NCBI GenBank assembly: GCA_021845665.1
Contig: JAJZVO010000005.1
Coordinates: 81,422-128,403, forward strand
Reading direction: 5' to 3'
Origin: Bacteroidota bacterium
GTDB lineage: Bacteria > Bacteroidota > Ignavibacteria > Kryptoniales > JAKASW01
DNA length: 46,982 nt
The notes under the pieces are model-generated. The model was not told where the DNA came from. It was given only the letters and a program-made list of their open reading frames with translations, and made no database searches. Position numbers and translations under genes: made by a program. Below, piece after piece: positions 26,473 through 33,634 of this stretch (positions are counted from its first letter, which is position 1; every line of letters starts with the position of its first letter).

Positions 26473-26497
26473 CATCCGCATTCACTGTTTGTACATT
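26469..26497 (+). promoter_or_regulatory. Sigma70-type promoter of the VapBC-like operon
   Basis: TTGACA (26469-26474) and TACATT (26492-26497) are separated by exactly 17 bases, an excellent -35 element and a fair -10 element. The -10 overlaps the edge of the palindromic operator at 26496. This is the best-defined promoter in the window. Confidence 0.7.
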
Positions 26498-26515
26498 TGA
26501 ATTGTACAATTCAAA
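26496..26515. promoter_or_regulatory. 20-bp perfect palindrome, candidate toxin-antitoxin operator
   Basis: TTTGAATTGTACAATTCAAA is fully self-complementary and lies between the -10 element and the antitoxin start codon, 12 bases upstream of the ATG. Toxin-antitoxin operons of this type are repressed by the antitoxin alone or by the complex binding such palindromes. TGTACA also occurs at 26490-26495, giving a possible second half-site. Confidence 0.7.
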
Positions 26516-26527
26516 ATGGAGGAGAAG

Positions 26528-26767
26528 ATGAATACGATTGCAGTGAGCGAGCTGAGAGCCAACCTGATGAAAGTGTTGAAGGAGGTTGCACGGGGCTCTG
26601 TTGTCGACGTCGCATCCAGAGGGAAGGTCGTGGCCAAAATCGTGCCGCCGGACCATATCAGAGAAGGGGCAAGAAACAGGTTGAAGGAAGTTGGCAAGAG
26701 CGCTGTGCTTGCCGACGTGATTTCTCCTATCGATTCCAAGTGGAAAGCTTCGGATGATAACAGTTGA
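26528..26767 (+). CDS. Phd/YefM-family antitoxin
   Basis: 79 residues, start ATG at 26528 because a GGAGGAG lies directly upstream (an earlier in-frame ATG at 26516 would overlap the ribosome site). The N-terminal half is a typical Phd/YefM DNA-binding fold: I-A-V-S-E-L-R-A-N-L-M-K-V-L-K-E-V and V-V-D-V-A-S-R-G-K-V-V-A-K-I-V-P. The C-terminus, rich in K, D and S and expected to be disordered, should wrap the toxin. It overlaps the toxin gene by 14 bases in a different frame, the normal coupling for these operons. It neutralises VapC and represses its own promoter by analogy. Confidence 0.9.
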   Translation: MNTIAVSELRANLMKVLKEVARGSVVDVASRGKVVAKIVPPDHIREGARNRLKEVGKSAVLADVISPIDSKWKASDDNS

Positions 26768-27149
26768 TACTCACGTCATAATCTGGTATGCCTTGAAACC
26801 CGCGCTATTAAGCAAGACTGCCAAAAGGGCGATTGACAAGGCGAATGAAACTGACGGTATCATCTTTTGCGAAATTTCCCTGTGGGAAATAGCCATGCTG
26901 ATCAAAAAGAAAAGGGTTGTCATAGATATCTCGTACGCTGAATTCATAAACTTAGTGAAGGCATCGAACAATTATGTCTTCAGAGGTTTGTCCCCGGAAG
27001 CAGCGGAGTTGTCGGCAAGCCTGCCATCTGAAATAAATCAGGACCCGGCAGACAGAATAATCTGTGCTACCTCCATAGTGAGTAATTCACCGTTGGTAAC
27101 TGCGGATAAGAATCTCAGGAAAGCGAAGAGCATAAGGAGTATCTGGTAG
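26754..27149 (+). CDS. VapC-type PIN-domain toxin
   Basis: 131 residues, a complete PIN ribonuclease domain. The acidic residues that hold the metal are visible: D5 in I-T-V-D-T-H, an E in the S-L-W-E segment (about 45), D100 in Q-D-P-A-D-R and D118 in V-T-A-D-K-N-L-R. VapC toxins cleave tRNA or rRNA to stop growth. Codon use and GC are similar to neighbours. It immediately follows its antitoxin with a 14-base overlap, so co-transcription is almost certain. Confidence 0.9.
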   Translation: MITVDTHVIIWYALKPALLSKTAKRAIDKANETDGIIFCEISLWEIAMLIKKKRVVIDISYAEFINLVKASNNYVFRGLSPEAAELSASLPSEINQDPADRIICATSIVSNSPLVTADKNLRKAKSIRSIW

Positions 27150-27312: not shown

Positions 27313-27639
27313 TTGATAGGCACGGCGATGCTCGTTCTCCCGGGCCCGGCGATTGTGGTCATTCCGCTTGCGCTGGCAATACTCGCGACGGAATTTGTAT
27401 GGGCGAGACGGCTGACGGAGAAGGTGAAGAGCAAGATGAACCTGAAGGGAAAGCGTCTTACAAAGACCCTTCCATCAGAGAACCGAATCTGCGCGGGCTT
27501 TGGCCGGTGCAAGGGCGATACGTACTCGCATTCAAAGCAGGTCTTGCAACTCTTGATAATCGAGTTTGGCCTGCCGCAGGATAGACCTCAGAGTTTCGGA
27601 ATTCAAGTCGCGATTGTGAACTGGAACTGTCACGAGTAG
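27313..27639 (+). pseudogene. Fragment of a PGPGW-type transmembrane protein
   Basis: The frame begins inside a known pattern: A-M-L-V-L-P-G-P-A-I-V-V-I-P-L-A-L-A-I-L-A-T-E-F-V-W-A-R-R, which matches the second half of PGPGW membrane proteins (PF09656). The first helix is absent and a stop lies six bases before the TTG start, so the N-terminus is gone. The frame continues beyond the usual end of the family into probably random sequence. It lies beside the defence island and is likely a relic. Confidence 0.6.
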
Positions 27640-27798
27640 GTTTCCATTCTTCGGTTGGACATGACTCCCTTCAGTTCTTACCTCAGCGAAACCAGAGACC
27701 TTCGGGGGCCCAACAATTTGAACAACGTCAAGGCGGTGTCGACCGTCAGCCGCCGCTTTCAGTTTATGATATTTGGAACAGAGGCCGTCGCAATCCAA
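27532..27798 (-). pseudogene. HicA-like mRNA interferase toxin, probably degenerate
   Basis: The C-terminal half matches the HicA (YcfA) double-stranded-RNA-binding-like fold: V-R-T-E-G-S-H with the catalytic G-S-H histidine (about residues 43-45), V-T-V-P-V-H-N-R-D-L, and L-R-S-I-L-R-Q-A-K-L. The N-terminal part (C-D-G-L-C-S-K-Y-H-K-L) does not resemble the first HicA helix, and no ATG or HicB partner is present. It is a truncated or recombined gene lying between the PGPGW fragment and the restriction gene tail. A short functional HicA from a later start is possible but unlikely. Confidence 0.5.
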
Positions 27799-27923: not shown

Positions 27924-28203
27924 TCAGTGGGGGCCCACGAACCGGTTGCCGTTGAAGTGAATCATGTGATCGGGGAAATCCGCCAACCAGACTTCTGTCT
28001 CCCAGGCAATATCGTCCGTGTGTTTCCGAAATTCTTTGAAATCGGGAAAGGCGGCCACATGCACCTTCCCGCCTTTACAGTTCTCTAAAATCTTCTCCAG
28101 CTCAATAATACGCTTCGGCGACACCGGGCCATGGGAGGTGACTGCCTCTATGAGAAAGAGCCAGTTCCGCTTCTTGTCGTATAGGACAACATCAGGAAAT
28201 TTG
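27924..28203 (-). pseudogene. 3' part of BsuBI/PstI-type restriction endonuclease, cut off by the insertion
   Basis: On the minus strand, from 28203, the frame reads [25 protein letters not shown] and later [21 protein letters not shown] with the stop at 27924. This is the catalytic second half of BsuBI/PstI endonucleases, holding the P-D ... E-A-V residues of their PD-(D/E)xK-like active site. There is no start codon or ribosome site. It continues, in the same frame after one copy of the AATTTG repeat is removed, the 5' part at 29672-30376. Confidence 0.9.
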
Positions 28204-28217
28204 GTCTAATGGGCTAT
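28204..28217 (+). repeat. Left terminal inverted repeat of the inserted element
   Basis: GTCTAATGGGCTAT follows the AATTTG target repeat at 28198-28203 directly. It matches the right end at 10 of 14 positions. Confidence 0.75.
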
Positions 28218-28333
28218 GGAGTTGGTAGGATTTGTTGAGCTATGGAAAAAAGAATAGCGACATAGTAGCGAAGATTTCATACGAATATTCGCGGTATTAG
28301 CCGCTTTCTGTTGTGAGATATTGCACTATCACC

Positions 28334-28363
28334 TTGATTTATTGAATGAATCAATGCTAATAT
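28334..28363 (+). promoter_or_regulatory. Candidate promoter/operator of the three-gene cassette
   Basis: TTGATT and TAATAT are 18 bases apart (each matching four of six consensus bases), and TTGATT pairs with AATCAA (28349-28354) in an inverted repeat that fills the spacer. The layout resembles an autoregulated toxin-antitoxin promoter. The distance of about 105 bases to the first start codon is rather long. Confidence 0.35.
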
Positions 28364-28467
28364 GGATATCAATGGTTAACCTGTAGAGTCGAGTCCTCTG
28401 AGGCAGACTATCAAGCGAGTCAAGAAATGCGATCAGAATGTCGAAGAGATTAGTATAGGAGAATAGT

Positions 28468-28812
28468 ATGTCGGAGAATCCACAGCCTCTTCCTAGTAAG
28501 GTGACTTTTTCATTTAAAAAAGCGCCTGATTATCGAATTTATCCCGCGACCGGAGCGTGGGGAGGTCCAACGATAGACCAAAGACATCTATTGATGAATA
28601 TCTCAATCGACCACCCGACTCTTCCAAGCTATACTGCACACTCTGTAGATGAGGGCGGGAAAATTGACCTGCAACATATTACCGACAGTGCATCTGCAAG
28701 CGATCTTGAGCGCGAACTTCTTTGTGGAATTTTGCTTGACAAGGGAACAGCCAAAGTTCTTGGGCAGTGGTTAATAGATAATGCCGAAAAACTTATGGGA
28801 GAACCTAAATGA
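28468..28812 (+). CDS. Cassette gene 1, hypothetical 114-residue protein
   Basis: The ATG at 28468 has AGGAGA upstream. The protein is soluble, with features V-T-F-S-F-K-K-A-P-D-Y-R-I, A-T-G-A-W-G-G-P-T, and a C-terminal helix A-K-V-L-G-Q-W-L-I-D-N-A-E-K-L. The G-G-x-T turn after an A-x-G-A-x-G segment is reminiscent of small Bacteroidota proteins of unknown function that have an R-V-I-H-x-D-G-x-x-G-G-x-T pattern; the similarity is weak and from memory. It is the first gene of the element and its stop overlaps the next start (ATGA). Function unknown. Confidence 0.75.
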   Translation: MSENPQPLPSKVTFSFKKAPDYRIYPATGAWGGPTIDQRHLLMNISIDHPTLPSYTAHSVDEGGKIDLQHITDSASASDLERELLCGILLDKGTAKVLGQWLIDNAEKLMGEPK

Positions 28813-29306
28813 ACGCGAACACAAACACCGCATCCGAAACCCAAATACAAAGTAAGATACTATCAAACCCATGGGAGAAGGTTGGGTCTATAAGTGGAGA
28901 CGTGACCTTGACGAATTTGAGACCCGAACCAAGTGCCCGAGCCCAGATTCTAAAAAGAGAAATCCCGTTCTCATACCTTAGCGAGGATGACAGCGCAAAG
29001 GTAGTTGCCCCGGTCATTTCTGCTAATAGTACGGTCGAACACGAGGTCATTTTCACCAAGAAATACGAGCCGACAATTGAGCTTTTCGGAGACCATTTCA
29101 TCCTGTCTCAGGATCCAGAAGGGGTTTTTCTCTATCACCCCATCTGGACTTTGTCGGGAAGTGGAGATAGCCTTGAGGCCGCTATGGTAGATTTAAAAGA
29201 AACGATCCAATTCCTTCGCCATGATCTTGATAATACTCCAACCTGGAAACTGGATGCGAACGCATTTGCCTTCAGAGAATATTTGCATGAGAAGCTAACC
29301 GTTTAA
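28809..29306 (+). CDS. Cassette gene 2, hypothetical protein with antitoxin-like C-terminal half
   Basis: 165 residues beginning at the ATGA overlap with gene 1. The N-terminal 60 residues are polar and probably flexible. The C-terminal half reads F-L-Y-H-P-I-W-T-L-S-G-S-G-D-S-L-E-A-A-M-V-D-L and then F-R-E-Y-L-H-E-K-L. The order of strand, H-P-x-W-x-L-x-G-x-G-x-[ST]-L-E-x-A and a helix resembles HicB-type antitoxins and similar partial-RNase-H-fold domains (G-D-T-x-E-E-A). With the next gene it forms a candidate antitoxin-toxin pair. This is inference; no homologue search was possible. Confidence 0.7.
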   Translation: MNANTNTASETQIQSKILSNPWEKVGSISGDVTLTNLRPEPSARAQILKREIPFSYLSEDDSAKVVAPVISANSTVEHEVIFTKKYEPTIELFGDHFILSQDPEGVFLYHPIWTLSGSGDSLEAAMVDLKETIQFLRHDLDNTPTWKLDANAFAFREYLHEKLTV

Positions 29307-29325
29307 TCTTATCATCTCCTGAACG

Positions 29326-29622
29326 ATGCCAGTTGAAAGAGAGGTGATTCGATCAAATATTAGCCAAAAGGGATTTGAGTTGGCACCCGACGGGGATCAC
29401 GATTACTATTGGCTTTACATGAATGGAAGAAAAACAAAGTGGTGGATTAAACTGTCAAGGGGATCAAATTACAGGGTCTATTCTGATAATTTATTGAAGA
29501 GACAGGCAAAGACTCTTAGAGTAACATTTCGTCAGCTCGTAGATTTTGTCACATGTAAGACCAAGAAGCAAGAATTCTATAATATCCTCTGCCAAAACGA
29601 TAGCTTTAACTGTAAATCGTAG
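29326..29622 (+). CDS. Cassette gene 3, small basic HicA-like protein
   Basis: 98 residues starting 19 bases after gene 2. It begins V-I-R-S-N-I-S-Q-K-G-F and then has D-G-D-H-D-Y-Y-W-L-Y and K-L-S-R-G-S-N-Y-R, followed by a helix pair R-Q-L-V-D-F-V-T-C. The K-G-F ... G-D-H arrangement with a conserved histidine after the first strand recalls the G-S-H site of HicA toxins and other small double-stranded-RNA-binding-like folds, and the protein is rich in lysine and arginine (basic). It is the likely toxin of the pair with gene 2, though an RNA- or DNA-binding regulator is an alternative. Confidence 0.7.
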   Translation: MPVEREVIRSNISQKGFELAPDGDHDYYWLYMNGRKTKWWIKLSRGSNYRVYSDNLLKRQAKTLRVTFRQLVDFVTCKTKKQEFYNILCQNDSFNCKS

Positions 29623-29671
29623 TTTTGACACCACTTGATTAGATGGTTCCCAGGTTTCGTTTTACAAACTT

Positions 29672-30376
29672 TCAAAATAGCCCACTACCGAATTTGCTGT
29701 CCTGGTCGAACGATACGCCGAGACTTTTTAATCCCTCCTTATCGATGAATAGATCCTTATTCGCGGTATCTCCGACATAAAGCAGGGCGTTGCCGCGCGC
29801 GAACCGGGGAGCAAACTGCTTGATGATCGCTATCTGAAGCTCGTTGTGCTTTCCGGGAGAAAAATCTAGTCCGGTGCCATTAGTAAGCTTGAGAGAAAGC
29901 ATCTTAACCTTTCGCTCGCCAGCATATTTTTGCCGAAGGGTTCCGAACTTCTTCTTAAAATTCTCAAGTTCTACGTTCCACTTATTGGTCCCGAAAGCCT
30001 GCACGACTCTGAGTGCTTCGCCTGTCAGCCTATAATGGTTATCCTTGCTGTTGGTCGGCAAATTGGGTTCCTCGGGGTTATGGTCAACAACGCCGGCCTG
30101 AACAAACTGATGGAGCGTTTGGCGCCTGAACGTCTCCCGTGAATTCTCCGCGTAGCGTTTTGCATAGTGCCCAGCAATGAAACGCATAACGCCAGGGTAT
30201 TTGGGATTCTTCCTATTCCCCACAACCGACATGCTCACCTGTTTCGCCTGAGACCATTTGTCTGTTTTCTTGACATTACACAACGCTAAAAAGGTGAGAG
30301 CCGAACGTTCGTTCTGCTGTTTTTTAGGAAGCCCCAATGCCTCCAGAATTTTCCTGGCTTCGTCGAGTTTGCTCAT
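29672..30376 (-). pseudogene. 5' part of BsuBI/PstI-type restriction endonuclease, interrupted before the catalytic site
   Basis: 234 residues. The N-terminal half of a BsuBI/PstI endonuclease is plain: L-D-E-A-R-K-I-L-E-A-L-G-L-P, then N-E-R-S-A-L-T-F-L-A-L, then V-M-R-F-I-A-G-H-Y-A. Residue 230 is the F of S-K-F, after which the frame enters the inserted element (G-S-G-L-F, stop at 29672). Joined with the 3' part at 27924-28203 it would encode 320 residues; BsuBI and PstI are about 316 and 326. The ATG overlaps the methyltransferase stop (ATGA), so expression was coupled. The shortened product lacks the PD-(D/E)xK centre and should be inactive. Confidence 0.9.
29677..29690 (-). repeat. Right terminal inverted repeat of the inserted element
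   Basis: Read on the minus strand it is CGGTAGTGGGCTAT, ending at the second AATTTG copy (29691-29696). Confidence 0.75.
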
Positions 30377-31584
30377 ACGGATGTGATTTCCTCCGGATTA
30401 AAGAACTCTGCTACCGTCGCACCAACCTTCGACTCTGCAAAATCGTTGTCTTGGATAATTCGGTTGCCGATTTCTTTAATCGTTTCTAATGGTGGCAGCG
30501 GTATTTCTCTCAATTCGGTCGCGCTTACGTTTACGTTTCCGTTAAACGTCCTGAAATACGTATCGAAAAGCTTGCTGTTCAGAAGTGCCGCAAGCCCGAC
30601 CGCCTCACTTCTCTCCAACTCCCCTTTCGGACGGTAGATGTAGTTGAGTTTGTTCTCGACACCTATGTAGTCCGGCTCATTCGGGTTAACAAAATATGGC
30701 GCGGCGATTAATCGACTCTTATCGTCCTTCGCGCTGAACCGCCGCAGCAGCACATAGTTGCGATTCGGAATGAGCACCGGCTCACTGGCATCGCAAATCT
30801 CAATGTACTGACCTTTCCCGATCTTATGAACCGGCCATTCGATGCTCATCTTAATCACGTTGTGCAGCCAGTAAAGGGGTGCCAAAACGACCTTCCCGTT
30901 TTCAAATCTCTCCCGGATGAACTTTCGCGCCCTGAAAGCAACGACGGGTCCGGTGGATATTTCGATACCGTAGTCTCTCAACCGGTGGTTCCAATTCCTG
31001 AAGATGTTGATAACGTCTTCTTCTGCACCGCTGCCAGAGACCTTTGTTCTCGGGTCTTCTTTCGAGAGTTTGAAATATGGCGGATTGGAAATGATGTAAT
31101 CAAATTGTTCCTGTTGTGGTCGGTCGAAGAGACTGATAGTATGACCGTCCTCAAAGACGCGAGCGTTTTCGAGTATGAAGTCTTTCGAGATAATCTTATA
31201 TACGAGCTCAATGCTTCTGCTTTTTAGCCAGGCTTTCAGATACTCAAACGCTCTTTCGGTGTATGGCAGAATCTCTTGATCTGTCTCGTAAGCAGTTACG
31301 TCAATTGCCCTCAGGTTCTCTGCCCCGCCGGTAAGCTTTTCCACGAGCGCACAAGTCAGTATTGCGGTGCCGCAACCCGGATCAAGAATACGAACGCGCT
31401 CCTTCGGCGAGCCAGCAAGGCCGCCCATGAAACGAGCGATTGCTGTTGGTGTAAAGAACTGTCCGTTCTGTTTTTTGTGTCCCTTCGTAACGCGGGCGGT
31501 GTAGTCGGTTCCTAGCCTGTCGGCGAAGTCACCTGGGAGCTCGTCTTCAAACGGCGCTATATCAAGGATATCTATCACGGTCAA
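30373..31584 (-). CDS. BsuBI/PstI-type N6-adenine DNA methyltransferase, possibly internally deleted
   Basis: 403 residues from a TTG at 31584 (GTG at 31578 is an alternative). Motif X is seen in G-Q-F-F-T-P-T-A-I-A-R-F-M (41-53), motif I in L-D-P-G-C-G-T-A-I-L-T (67-77) and motif IV in N-P-P-Y (167-170), all as in BsuBI/PstI methyltransferases, which protect the CTGCAG site. The C-terminal target part has G-I-E-I-S-T-G-P-V-V-A-F-R and ends in L-N-S-K-L-F. Such enzymes are about 500 residues. After N-P-P-Y-F-K-L-S-K-E-D-P-R the sequence jumps within 13 residues to a region expected about 100 residues later (I-N-I-F-R-N-W-N), so a large in-frame deletion of the late motifs is likely. Confidence 0.85.
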   Translation of the reverse strand: MTVIDILDIAPFEDELPGDFADRLGTDYTARVTKGHKKQNGQFFTPTAIARFMGGLAGSPKERVRILDPGCGTAILTCALVEKLTGGAENLRAIDVTAYETDQEILPYTERAFEYLKAWLKSRSIELVYKIISKDFILENARVFEDGHTISLFDRPQQEQFDYIISNPPYFKLSKEDPRTKVSGSGAEEDVINIFRNWNHRLRDYGIEISTGPVVAFRARKFIRERFENGKVVLAPLYWLHNVIKMSIEWPVHKIGKGQYIEICDASEPVLIPNRNYVLLRRFSAKDDKSRLIAAPYFVNPNEPDYIGVENKLNYIYRPKGELERSEAVGLAALLNSKLFDTYFRTFNGNVNVSATELREIPLPPLETIKEIGNRIIQDNDFAESKVGATVAEFFNPEEITSV

Positions 31585-31808: not shown

Positions 31809-32747
31809 ATGCAAATGGCACACGGGGGCGGAAACCAAGGAAAGAAAAGGGCAACTGAAAAGAGGCAAGGTATTATCAAACAATCAAAGCTTACCAGGCA
31901 TCCTGTAATTCGGAAAAGGTCCGTATCGGAGGAGAAAGCGCGGTACCGAAAGAAGATCGCGTTCGGATGGTACGGCGGCAAGTATAGTCACCTGGAATGG
32001 CTTCTACCTCTCCTTCCAGAATGCCATCATTACTGTGAACCGTTTGGGGGCTCGGCAGCTGTGCTACTCAACAGAGACCCGTCACCTGTCGAAACCTATA
32101 ATGATCTTGACGGCGACGTTGTGAATTTCTTCCGCGTGCTCAGAGAACAGAAGGATGATCTCTTGTACTCTATTGGTTTGACTCCGTTTTCTCGAGAAGA
32201 GTTTTTGGCAGCTATCCAGACCAATGGGAACGGAAAAAACCTATCGCCGCTTGAACGTGCAAGACGCTTCTATATTCGTGCCCGGCAAGTTCGCACCGGT
32301 CTTGCACAGACTGCATCCATAGGTCGTTGGGCTAACTGCCTCAATACAAGCCGAGCTGGAATGTCCGGGGCGGTCTCGCGATGGCTGGGTAGTGTAGAGG
32401 GTCTCGAATACATTGCCACTCGTCTGTTGCGCGTCCAAATTGAAAACGACAAGGCCGAAAAGGTAATACAACGCTATGATAGCGGCGAGACACTATTCTA
32501 CTGCGATCCGCCGTACCCTCACGAATCTCGCGGCGATTCAAAAGCGTATCAGTTCGAACTAAGCGACGAAGAACATGTAGCTCTGGCAAAATTGCTGAAC
32601 GGCGTGAAGGGAAAGGTCGCTGTTTCGGGCTATGACTGTGAGTTAATGCGGACTCTATATAAAGAGTGGAATATTCACAAAGAAAAGCCGAAACAGGCGA
32701 TGTCTATAAAGCAGGAGCGACAAGAAATCCTCTGGACAAACTATTAA
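31809..32747 (+). CDS. D12-class (Dam-like) N6-adenine DNA methyltransferase
   Basis: 312 residues. The start at 31809 has GGAG just upstream; a second in-frame ATG at 31815 has better spacing. The N-terminal 45 residues are basic and low complexity, then F-G-W-Y-G-G-K-Y-S (52-60) gives the D12 N-terminal motif, P-F-G-G-S-A-A-V (78-85) gives motif I, and Y-C-D-P-P-Y-P-H (231-238) holds the catalytic D-P-P-Y. The family methylates adenine in short palindromes. It begins the second restriction-modification pair, transcribed away from the first, and its stop overlaps the next start (TAATG). Confidence 0.92.
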   Translation: MQMAHGGGNQGKKRATEKRQGIIKQSKLTRHPVIRKRSVSEEKARYRKKIAFGWYGGKYSHLEWLLPLLPECHHYCEPFGGSAAVLLNRDPSPVETYNDLDGDVVNFFRVLREQKDDLLYSIGLTPFSREEFLAAIQTNGNGKNLSPLERARRFYIRARQVRTGLAQTASIGRWANCLNTSRAGMSGAVSRWLGSVEGLEYIATRLLRVQIENDKAEKVIQRYDSGETLFYCDPPYPHESRGDSKAYQFELSDEEHVALAKLLNGVKGKVAVSGYDCELMRTLYKEWNIHKEKPKQAMSIKQERQEILWTNY

Positions 32748-33634
32748 TGGATGACGCGAAGTCATTTACTGAAAGATGTCAAGACTTCCTTGATAAAGGG
32801 TGGAGATCCATTTCAATTGTCCCATTCGATCAGGCGAACCACAGAGTATTGGGCGGTTCGACAGAGCCATACGTCAATAACCCGCTTCGCTGTCCGGCGG
32901 TGACTAAGAAGTACAGATTTCAACAGAAGAACAAAGAAGACTGGGACAGACTGGTTACGGTGCTGGACGAAGTGGAGAAAAGAAGCGACATATCATTCAC
33001 GTCGGTCGTGTTCGACCAGGTTCTGGTTGAGATTTATCACCTTCTCGCCGATGTGCAAGTCGTTTATCCTACCCCAAACAGAGTGAGTCTCGCACAAACT
33101 ATCGATCTCGTCTCTGAATATGTCTACGACAAATCAGGCGGCGACCGCATGGAGGCCGTATGCACGGCATTATTCAGAGCGATCACAAAGGAATTTCGAA
33201 TCTTTGATGATGTACGAAGACAGAAAGTCAACACCGCTGACGCATCCTCCGGGATGGGCGCGGATATCGAGTGTCGCCTCAAAGGCAAGATAGTTCTTCT
33301 CGTGGAGGTTAAAGATCGCTCATTGACCCTTACACAGATCGATTCAAAACTAGATGTTGCCAGAGCGCGGAAGATGTCTGAGATTTTGTTCTTGGCTGAA
33401 CAGGGACTCGACAAGGCAGACAAAGAGAATGCCGAGGCAAGAATCCTGTCTGAGTTTACCAGCGGTCAGAACGTCTACGTCTCGAATTTCCTGGAGTTTT
33501 CCTCCGGTATTCTGATCTTACTCGGTGAGAAAGGAAGGGTCCTTTTCTTATCCTTTATCGGCGAGGAGCTTGACCGAGCAACCTCCTCAATTGTTCACCG
33601 GAAGGCGTGGGCAAATCTTCTCAAGACAATCTGA
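32747..33634 (+). CDS. Type II restriction endonuclease candidate (PD-(D/E)xK, SacI-like?)
   Basis: 295 residues, coupled to the methyltransferase gene by a one-base TAATG overlap. The active-site candidate is S-G-M-G-A-D-I-E-C (D173, E175) followed by L-L-V-E-V-K-D-R (E187, K189), a D-x13-E-x-K arrangement typical of PD-(D/E)xK nucleases. The segments D-A-S-S-G-M and V-E-V-K-D-R-S-L-T-L-T resemble what I remember of the SacI-family nuclease, but I am not certain of this. Nothing suggests disruption, so the pair is probably functional. It may have replaced the BsuBI/PstI-type system. Confidence 0.75.
   Translation: MDDAKSFTERCQDFLDKGWRSISIVPFDQANHRVLGGSTEPYVNNPLRCPAVTKKYRFQQKNKEDWDRLVTVLDEVEKRSDISFTSVVFDQVLVEIYHLLADVQVVYPTPNRVSLAQTIDLVSEYVYDKSGGDRMEAVCTALFRAITKEFRIFDDVRRQKVNTADASSGMGADIECRLKGKIVLLVEVKDRSLTLTQIDSKLDVARARKMSEILFLAEQGLDKADKENAEARILSEFTSGQNVYVSNFLEFSSGILILLGEKGRVLFLSFIGEELDRATSSIVHRKAWANLLKTI

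Follow-up and report, generated by a model that had tools for sequence, protein, structure and literature searches.

The locus

The window, the whole stretch of 46,982 nucleotides that was analysed, comes from a bacterium of the class Ignavibacteria and carries a compact operon of three small genes, all read in the same direction:

28468-28812, forward strand: gene 1, 114 aa, a member of a DUF3467-related family
28809-29306, forward strand: gene 2, 165 aa, a putative HicB-like antitoxin
29326-29622, forward strand: gene 3, 98 aa, a putative HicA-like RNase toxin

These are the positions given in the preliminary description, as are the ATGA by which genes 1 and 2 overlap and the gap of 19 bases between genes 2 and 3. 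Each gene has a single copy in the host genome. When the window is compared with the copy in a sister species of the same genus (L053), gene 1 has a dN of 0.14 against a dS of 1.7, while the dN is 0.45 for gene 2 and 0.20 for gene 3, with the synonymous sites saturated in both. Nonsynonymous change is far below synonymous change, the mark of purifying selection on all three genes. This constraint, together with homologues in the same order in other genomes, means that the three open reading frames are more than chance.

The window proteins themselves have zero matches in Pfam, NCBIfam and PADLOC, and none at a significant E-value in PHROGs. For gene 3, tblastn searches of plasmids and phages returned nothing, and neither did scans of viral and genome contigs for patterns of this gene alone or a scan of viral contigs for gene 1; PDB sequence searches with the profiles of genes 1, 2 and 3 gave chance matches only.

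Conservation of the three-gene order

Eleven gene 1 loci, each in a different genome, keep the succession of gene 1, gene 2 and gene 3 in order and strand; the count includes intact copies, diverged and decayed ones and copies that a contig end truncates. A class-wide search detected gene 1 in 11 of 391 genomes, and nine of those 11 loci are triads, so that with L050 and L024, which come from elsewhere, there are 11 in all. Intact copies are found in an Aliifodinibius MAG (L050), an Ignavibacteria MAG (L051) and at L058 and L059, and L024 has all three genes in order, while at L057 genes 1 and 2 are followed by the end of the contig. Two further triads, L060 and L061, have diverged, with gene 3 still matching its family at 2e-9 and 1.5e-7, respectively, and keeping its histidine. 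Decay is visible in two others: at L053, in the sister species, part of the interior of gene 1 is gone and gene 3 contains two stop codons, and at L015 there is a stop in gene 1 and a frame change in gene 3. In other genomes of the genus and the class, genes 2 and 3 are adjacent and gene 1 homologues lie just upstream.

Gene 1 overlaps or nearly touches gene 2 in almost all of the triads, and this is the reason why a physical partnership between their products is favoured here. The gene 1 family also occurs in front of different genes, at two loci among the 391 genomes and on a Bipolaricaulota contig:

L062, 605-1806: gene 1 relative with other small genes downstream, which encode an 'NWNGYGS' protein and an 'NRPSSAxFKDSxGVSVDR' protein
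L064, 544-1809: gene 1 relative with other small genes downstream
L052, 1831-2651: gene 1 relative with other small genes downstream, on the Bipolaricaulota contig

Since its relatives precede different small genes, gene 1 may be a component common to several modules. The Bipolaricaulota contig also has an IS1595-type transposase gene near the gene 1 homologue (L052, 3037-3903, reverse strand). IS1595 elements are known for 8-bp duplications, a length equal to that of the duplication around the element in the window described below.

Genes 2 and 3 as probable remote relatives of HicB and HicA

The preliminary description had likened gene 3 to HicA by a KGF...GDH layout and gene 2 to HicB by an HPxWxLxGxG...LEAA segment. 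Both patterns are present: K15, G16, F17 and H25 of gene 3 are invariant in 13 relatives, and the segment in gene 2 (HPxWxLxGxG...L(E/x)xA) is the most conserved part of the gene 2 family. The relationship was then assessed at the level of profiles, with a canonical HicA alignment of 28 sequences taken from genomes with PF07927 matches and a canonical HicB alignment of 27 sequences from the genes adjoining those HicA genes. The gene 3 family (alignment A5) aligned to canonical HicA by hhalign with a probability of 93% and an E-value of 3.5e-7 over 67 columns, as compared with at best 1.1% and E 0.05 in 60 column-shuffled controls. The gene 2 family (A6) aligned to canonical HicB with 65.9% and E 5.7e-5 over 44 columns, against 0.4% or less in its own 60 column-shuffled controls, and the crossed comparisons of gene 3 with HicB and gene 2 with HicA both gave 0.1%. 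Four of the 13 gene 3 relatives match the Pfam HicA_toxin family (PF07927) with E-values of 1.5e-5 to 7.8e-5, which lie below its 27-bit cut-off; the gene 3 protein of the window does not match it. His25 of gene 3 aligns with the region of the GSH histidine in canonical HicA, and in several species HicA requires an active-site histidine for its activity (PMC11594946).

These comparisons support a remote homology of gene 3 to HicA and of gene 2 to HicB. The HicA/HicB reading thus holds for the profile comparisons with their shuffled controls and for the sub-threshold relatives, but does not extend to a match of the window proteins to any curated family. As the strict family cut-off is missed, the pair is described here as remotely homologous and as probably HicBA-like in its working, and not as a curated member of HicBA. 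Like the type II HicAB systems with a PF07927 toxin, it consists of adjoining small genes whose products are both remotely similar by profile and include the active histidine; it differs from them in lying below the curated cut-off, in having the toxin gene last and in having a third gene.

The AF2 model of gene 2 has a pLDDT of 50.5 and is too poor to confirm a HicB fold, with the C-terminal half, at a pLDDT of about 70, modelled as four strands followed by helices. Foldseek found nothing at E <0.001 for this model, and VIA-align gave low Z-scores only (up to 4.1); the VIA-align results for the models listed no SecB, HicB or DUF3467 structure, an absence that is not evidence against any of these. 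The weak models and the missed cut-offs speak for a reading in which genes 2 and 3 are no toxin-antitoxin pair, the similarity to HicA and HicB being that of generic small alpha/beta domains. This is improbable in view of two independent profile links that join the expected partners in the expected surroundings, while controls, both shuffled and between families, stay close to zero, and of an active histidine that is kept in 13 of 13 gene 3 relatives.

A probable shortened Class-8-like pair

The closest published counterpart is found among the 14 HicA gene arrangements that have been catalogued, all of them bicistronic or fused and none with three genes (Gerdes 2024, PMC10865869). Class 8 of this catalogue is a bicistronic hicBA with a three-domain HicB of 331-356 aa (Gerdes 2024, PMC10865869). 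Several gene 3 relatives elsewhere in the phylum (L025, L026, L036 and L008) have partners of 348-372 aa that are Class 8-like, and the conserved C-terminal half of gene 2, the N-terminal half being variable, aligns with the C-terminal domain of these long partners at E 1.1e-3, where shuffles reached at best 0.092. Because of this alignment, genes 2 and 3 are best read, from their sequences, as a shortened Class-8-like hicBA pair. The window operon resembles Class 8 in a HicA-like protein of about 95 aa with extra C-terminal residues, in a putative antitoxin gene that lies upstream of the toxin gene and in a putative HicB-type domain at the C-terminal end of the partner. It falls outside the class as defined, with an antitoxin-like protein of 165 aa in place of 331-356 aa and a separate upstream gene. 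The idea that genes 1 and 2 are a Class 8 HicB split in two was considered and rejected, as gene 2 corresponds to the C-terminal domain and gene 1 matches no part of the long protein. Many hicBA modules were also seen in one genus of the same phylum (L025, L026, L029-L032, L034 and L036), with antitoxin-like partners of 327-360 aa that are Class 8-like (Gerdes 2024).

Gene 1, the third component

Gene 1 had been described as a conserved-looking protein with function unknown, and it proved to be a conserved partner of genes 2 and 3 whose family is probably related to DUF3467. Members of the family (alignment A7) share the conserved motif GA(W)GG, one strand and a helix at the C-terminus. Gene 1 of the window does not match DUF3467 (PF11950), while its relative at L062 does so with 28.7 bits against a cut-off of 25, and the family profile aligns to DUF3467 by hhalign at E 3.7e-4, with shuffles reaching at best 0.021. 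Of 61 related genomes searched, 59 contain DUF3467. A literature search returned no function for it, only an incidental mention, and a position of DUF3467 genes beside rpoC was not seen in any of the 30 loci examined.

The model of gene 1 is of low confidence (mean pLDDT 69.7). Foldseek found nothing at E <0.001, and the VIA-align scores, with COMM domains at Z 4.5, Pur-alpha at 3.6 and a PC4-like fold at 3.2, are too weak to decide whether its role lies in binding proteins or nucleic acids. Two readings of gene 1 are as a chaperone and as a repressor.

The first is that gene 1 would serve the gene 2 antitoxin as its dedicated chaperone, in the manner of SecB-TA systems but without homology to them. 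There is a precedent in HicAB-type toxin-antitoxin-chaperone (TAC) systems, which have a SecB-like chaperone and function in E. coli, such as the HicAB-SecB of Methylomonas methanica (PMC5105189). The window operon shares with that system a three-gene layout in which a HicA/HicB-like pair is joined by a third protein that is small and beta-rich, and the coupling of gene 1 to gene 2 in nearly all triads would suit co-translational assembly, just as the presence of gene 1 relatives before other small gene pairs (L062 and L064) would suit a general helper. Against this, SecB is not matched at E-values up to 1 by any of 11 gene 1 family members, the third protein of the window is DUF3467-related and encoded by the first gene, and known antitoxins of this type carry a C-terminal extension, while gene 2 lacks one and has its variable part at the N-terminus. 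A chaperone of this kind is therefore conceivable and on balance doubtful.

The same precedent bears on the claim of the preliminary description that a toxin-antitoxin module with a third component would be a new arrangement. The three-gene module and its conserved partner stand, but the novelty does not lie in the number of components, as three-component HicAB systems with a SecB-like partner were already known (PMC5105189); what is absent from the 14 published HicA contexts is a DUF3467-related third component and the gene order of the window.

The palindrome and a candidate promoter

The second reading makes gene 1 the transcriptional repressor of the operon, and it depends on a feature upstream of the gene:

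28334-28354: palindrome TTGATTTATTGAATGAATCAA, 9/10 pairs, a candidate operator

An inverted repeat had been noted about 105 bases upstream of gene 1. The repeat exists and is a stronger one than was claimed: a near-perfect palindrome of 21 bp that lies 114-134 bases upstream. It overlaps a weak TTGATT (28334-28339) and stands just before a TAATAT (28358-28363), forming TTGATT-N18-TAATAT, a candidate promoter that the promoter scan omits because it misses the 9-of-12 rule. In simulations, the chance of any such palindrome in the spacer was about 0.02. In the sister copy (L053), TTGACA-N17-TAATAT stands at about the same distance, at -125. Conservation of the palindrome does not extend to the other triads.

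Gene 1 is put forward as the protein that would bind this palindrome since no DNA-binding domain is recognisable in gene 2, which matched no DNA-binding family. The overlap of palindrome and promoter agrees with repression, and the model of gene 1 is weakly similar to the nucleic-acid-binding Pur-alpha and PC4-like folds. Z-scores as low as these are common for unrelated folds, however, the best rows are COMM domains, neither a helix-turn-helix nor a ribbon-helix-helix was found, and the palindrome is not kept in the other triads. Gene 1 as the repressor is somewhat less probable than gene 1 as the chaperone.

A mobile cassette within a restriction gene

The operon lies within an element, which is listed here with its parts and the genes it separates from each other:

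28205-29689: cassette of 1,485 bp bounded by terminal inverted repeats, which interrupts the frame of a restriction endonuclease gene and whose ends belong to a multi-copy family of the genus
28197-28204: left copy of the target duplication, AAATTTGG, 8 bp, 6/8 identical to the right copy
29690-29697: right copy of the target duplication, GAATTTGC, 8 bp, with two changes relative to the left copy
28205-28219, forward strand: left terminal inverted repeat, TCTAATGGGCTATGG, diverged, with the core TAATGGGCTAT pairing with the right end
29672-29689, reverse strand: right terminal inverted repeat, GGTAGTGGGCTATTTTGA, equal to the family consensus
29690-30376, reverse strand: 5' part of a BsuBI/PstI-type restriction endonuclease gene, with PF17728 and PF06616 positions 3-69
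27924-28196, reverse strand: 3' part of the same gene, with PF06616 positions 95-153, the frame resuming at PDVV
30373-31584, reverse strand: adenine methyltransferase gene of the broken BsuBI/PstI-type system, its frame still open

In the 4.64-Mb host genome, TARTGGGCTAT occurs twice, at the two ends of the cassette and in inverted orientation, and the wider end motif GNRGTGGGCTANTTT was counted 30 times across 13 genus genomes, as compared with once for a reversed control pattern. Scattered through the genomes of the genus are miniature elements of 104 to 381 bp whose ends are of the GGTRGTGGGCTAYTTT type, among them the following, to which a larger sister element is added:

L206, 2354-2457: 104-bp element with a perfect 8-bp target duplication
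L204, 3731-4011: 281-bp element with a perfect 8-bp target duplication
L201, 4068-4448: 381-bp element with a perfect 8-bp target duplication
L171: 235-bp element with the paired ends of the cassette family
L207, 2090-2970 (G004:C83): 881-bp sister element in a different species, with the same end family

The sister element carries cargo of its own, a 94-aa antitoxin-like open reading frame and a decayed fragment of a MazF-type toxin (PemK/MazF, 3.1e-10). The cassette in the window contains the three operon genes only and no transposase, and a transposase for the end family was not found at three representative end loci (G009, G011 and G010); the end copies in G009 and G011 have only about 100-150 bp beside the end in common. 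An apparent longer element with paired TARTGGGCTAT on contig C47 of G011 was discarded, as the 4-kb interval holds ordinary genes and the pair is due to chance. Given paired family ends and target duplications with no transposase between them, the cassette is a non-autonomous element with cargo, from a MITE-like end family. Toxin-antitoxin passengers have been described for Tn3-family transposons, MITEs and mobile insertion cassettes (PMC7157771; PMC4133298). The cassette shares with these the inverted ends, the target duplication and the passenger toxin-antitoxin genes, and with the miniature forms the lack of a transposase of its own; it differs in its end family, which has an 8-bp duplication.

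When the flanks are joined at the duplicated site, they form one frame (DSKF/PDVV) of 319 aa with a single PF06616 match covering positions 3-153 of 154, from which it follows that the cassette broke a BsuBI/PstI-type restriction endonuclease gene. As the methyltransferase frame is still open, the host may go on methylating its DNA while lacking the nuclease.

The surroundings hold further genes of related kinds. Directly downstream of the broken restriction gene is the remnant of a canonical HicA gene (27535-27798, reverse strand; PF07927, 44.2 bits, profile positions 12-58) with no obvious intact HicB partner. Farther along, at 26496-27149 on the forward strand, is a Phd/YefM antitoxin and PIN-domain (VapC) toxin pair (genes at 26516-27149); immediately in front of the antitoxin start stands TTTGAATTGTACAATTCAAA, a perfect palindrome of 20 bp that is likely to be an operator. 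On the other side, a second restriction-modification pair (31809-33634, forward strand) consists of a D12-class adenine methyltransferase gene that overlaps a gene for a SacI-like restriction endonuclease.

A stretch so rich in defence genes, with the broken BsuBI/PstI-type genes, the second restriction-modification pair and the Phd/VapC pair, invites the thought that the operon is a three-gene anti-phage system, borrowing HicA/HicB-like folds without being an addiction module, in which gene 1 would sense infection. HicA contexts have been proposed to act in phage defence (PMC10865869). PADLOC, however, gave no match, and since the operon arrived by transposition, the neighbouring genes say little about its function; a dedicated anti-phage system is therefore an unlikely reading.

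How the operon may work

The reading preferred here, to which a probability of roughly seven in ten is given, is that of a three-gene toxin-antitoxin-like operon on a small non-autonomous transposable element, with a HicA-like toxin, a HicB-like antitoxin and gene 1 as a helper or repressor. The sequences show the operon with its conservation and constraint, the remote homology, the ends of the element and the broken restriction gene, whereas each functional step that follows is inferred. Gene 3 would most likely be a HicA-like ribonuclease with a dsRNA-binding fold and an active His25, and gene 2 most likely a HicB-like antitoxin whose conserved C-terminal half would bind and block gene 3, while another contact may be made by the variable half at its N-terminus. 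Gene 1, small, beta-rich and translationally coupled to gene 2, would assist gene 2 or co-repress with it, as an antitoxin partner, a chaperone or an operator-binding repressor. The operon would be transcribed from the promoter that overlaps the 21-bp palindrome and would repress itself. If the gene 2 (or gene 1) protein, which would be labile, were lost, gene 3 would be freed to cut RNA, and growth would stop, the outcome being either addiction to the element or phage defence.

A broader proposal, tentative and in its joint form rather doubtful, is that the gene 1 family represents a third component of a new, modular kind, one that helps or regulates antitoxins, is not SecB and is common to unrelated small two-gene modules, and that MITE-like elements shuttle toxin-antitoxin modules in Ca. 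Kryptoniota, so that in this instance a three-gene HicBA-like module would have entered and silenced a restriction enzyme.

Significance

In a bacterium of a candidate phylum, a 1.5-kb cassette with an apparent HicB/HicA-type toxin-antitoxin pair and an extra protein broke a restriction-enzyme gene. Its operon adds a three-gene arrangement to a catalogue of HicA contexts that were hitherto two-gene or fused, and gives relatives of DUF3467 their first functional setting. With the decayed MazF-type module of the sister element, it also offers a testable case of toxin-antitoxin modules as the cargo of miniature elements, cargo whose spread came here at the cost of a restriction enzyme, the methyltransferase gene of which is still open.
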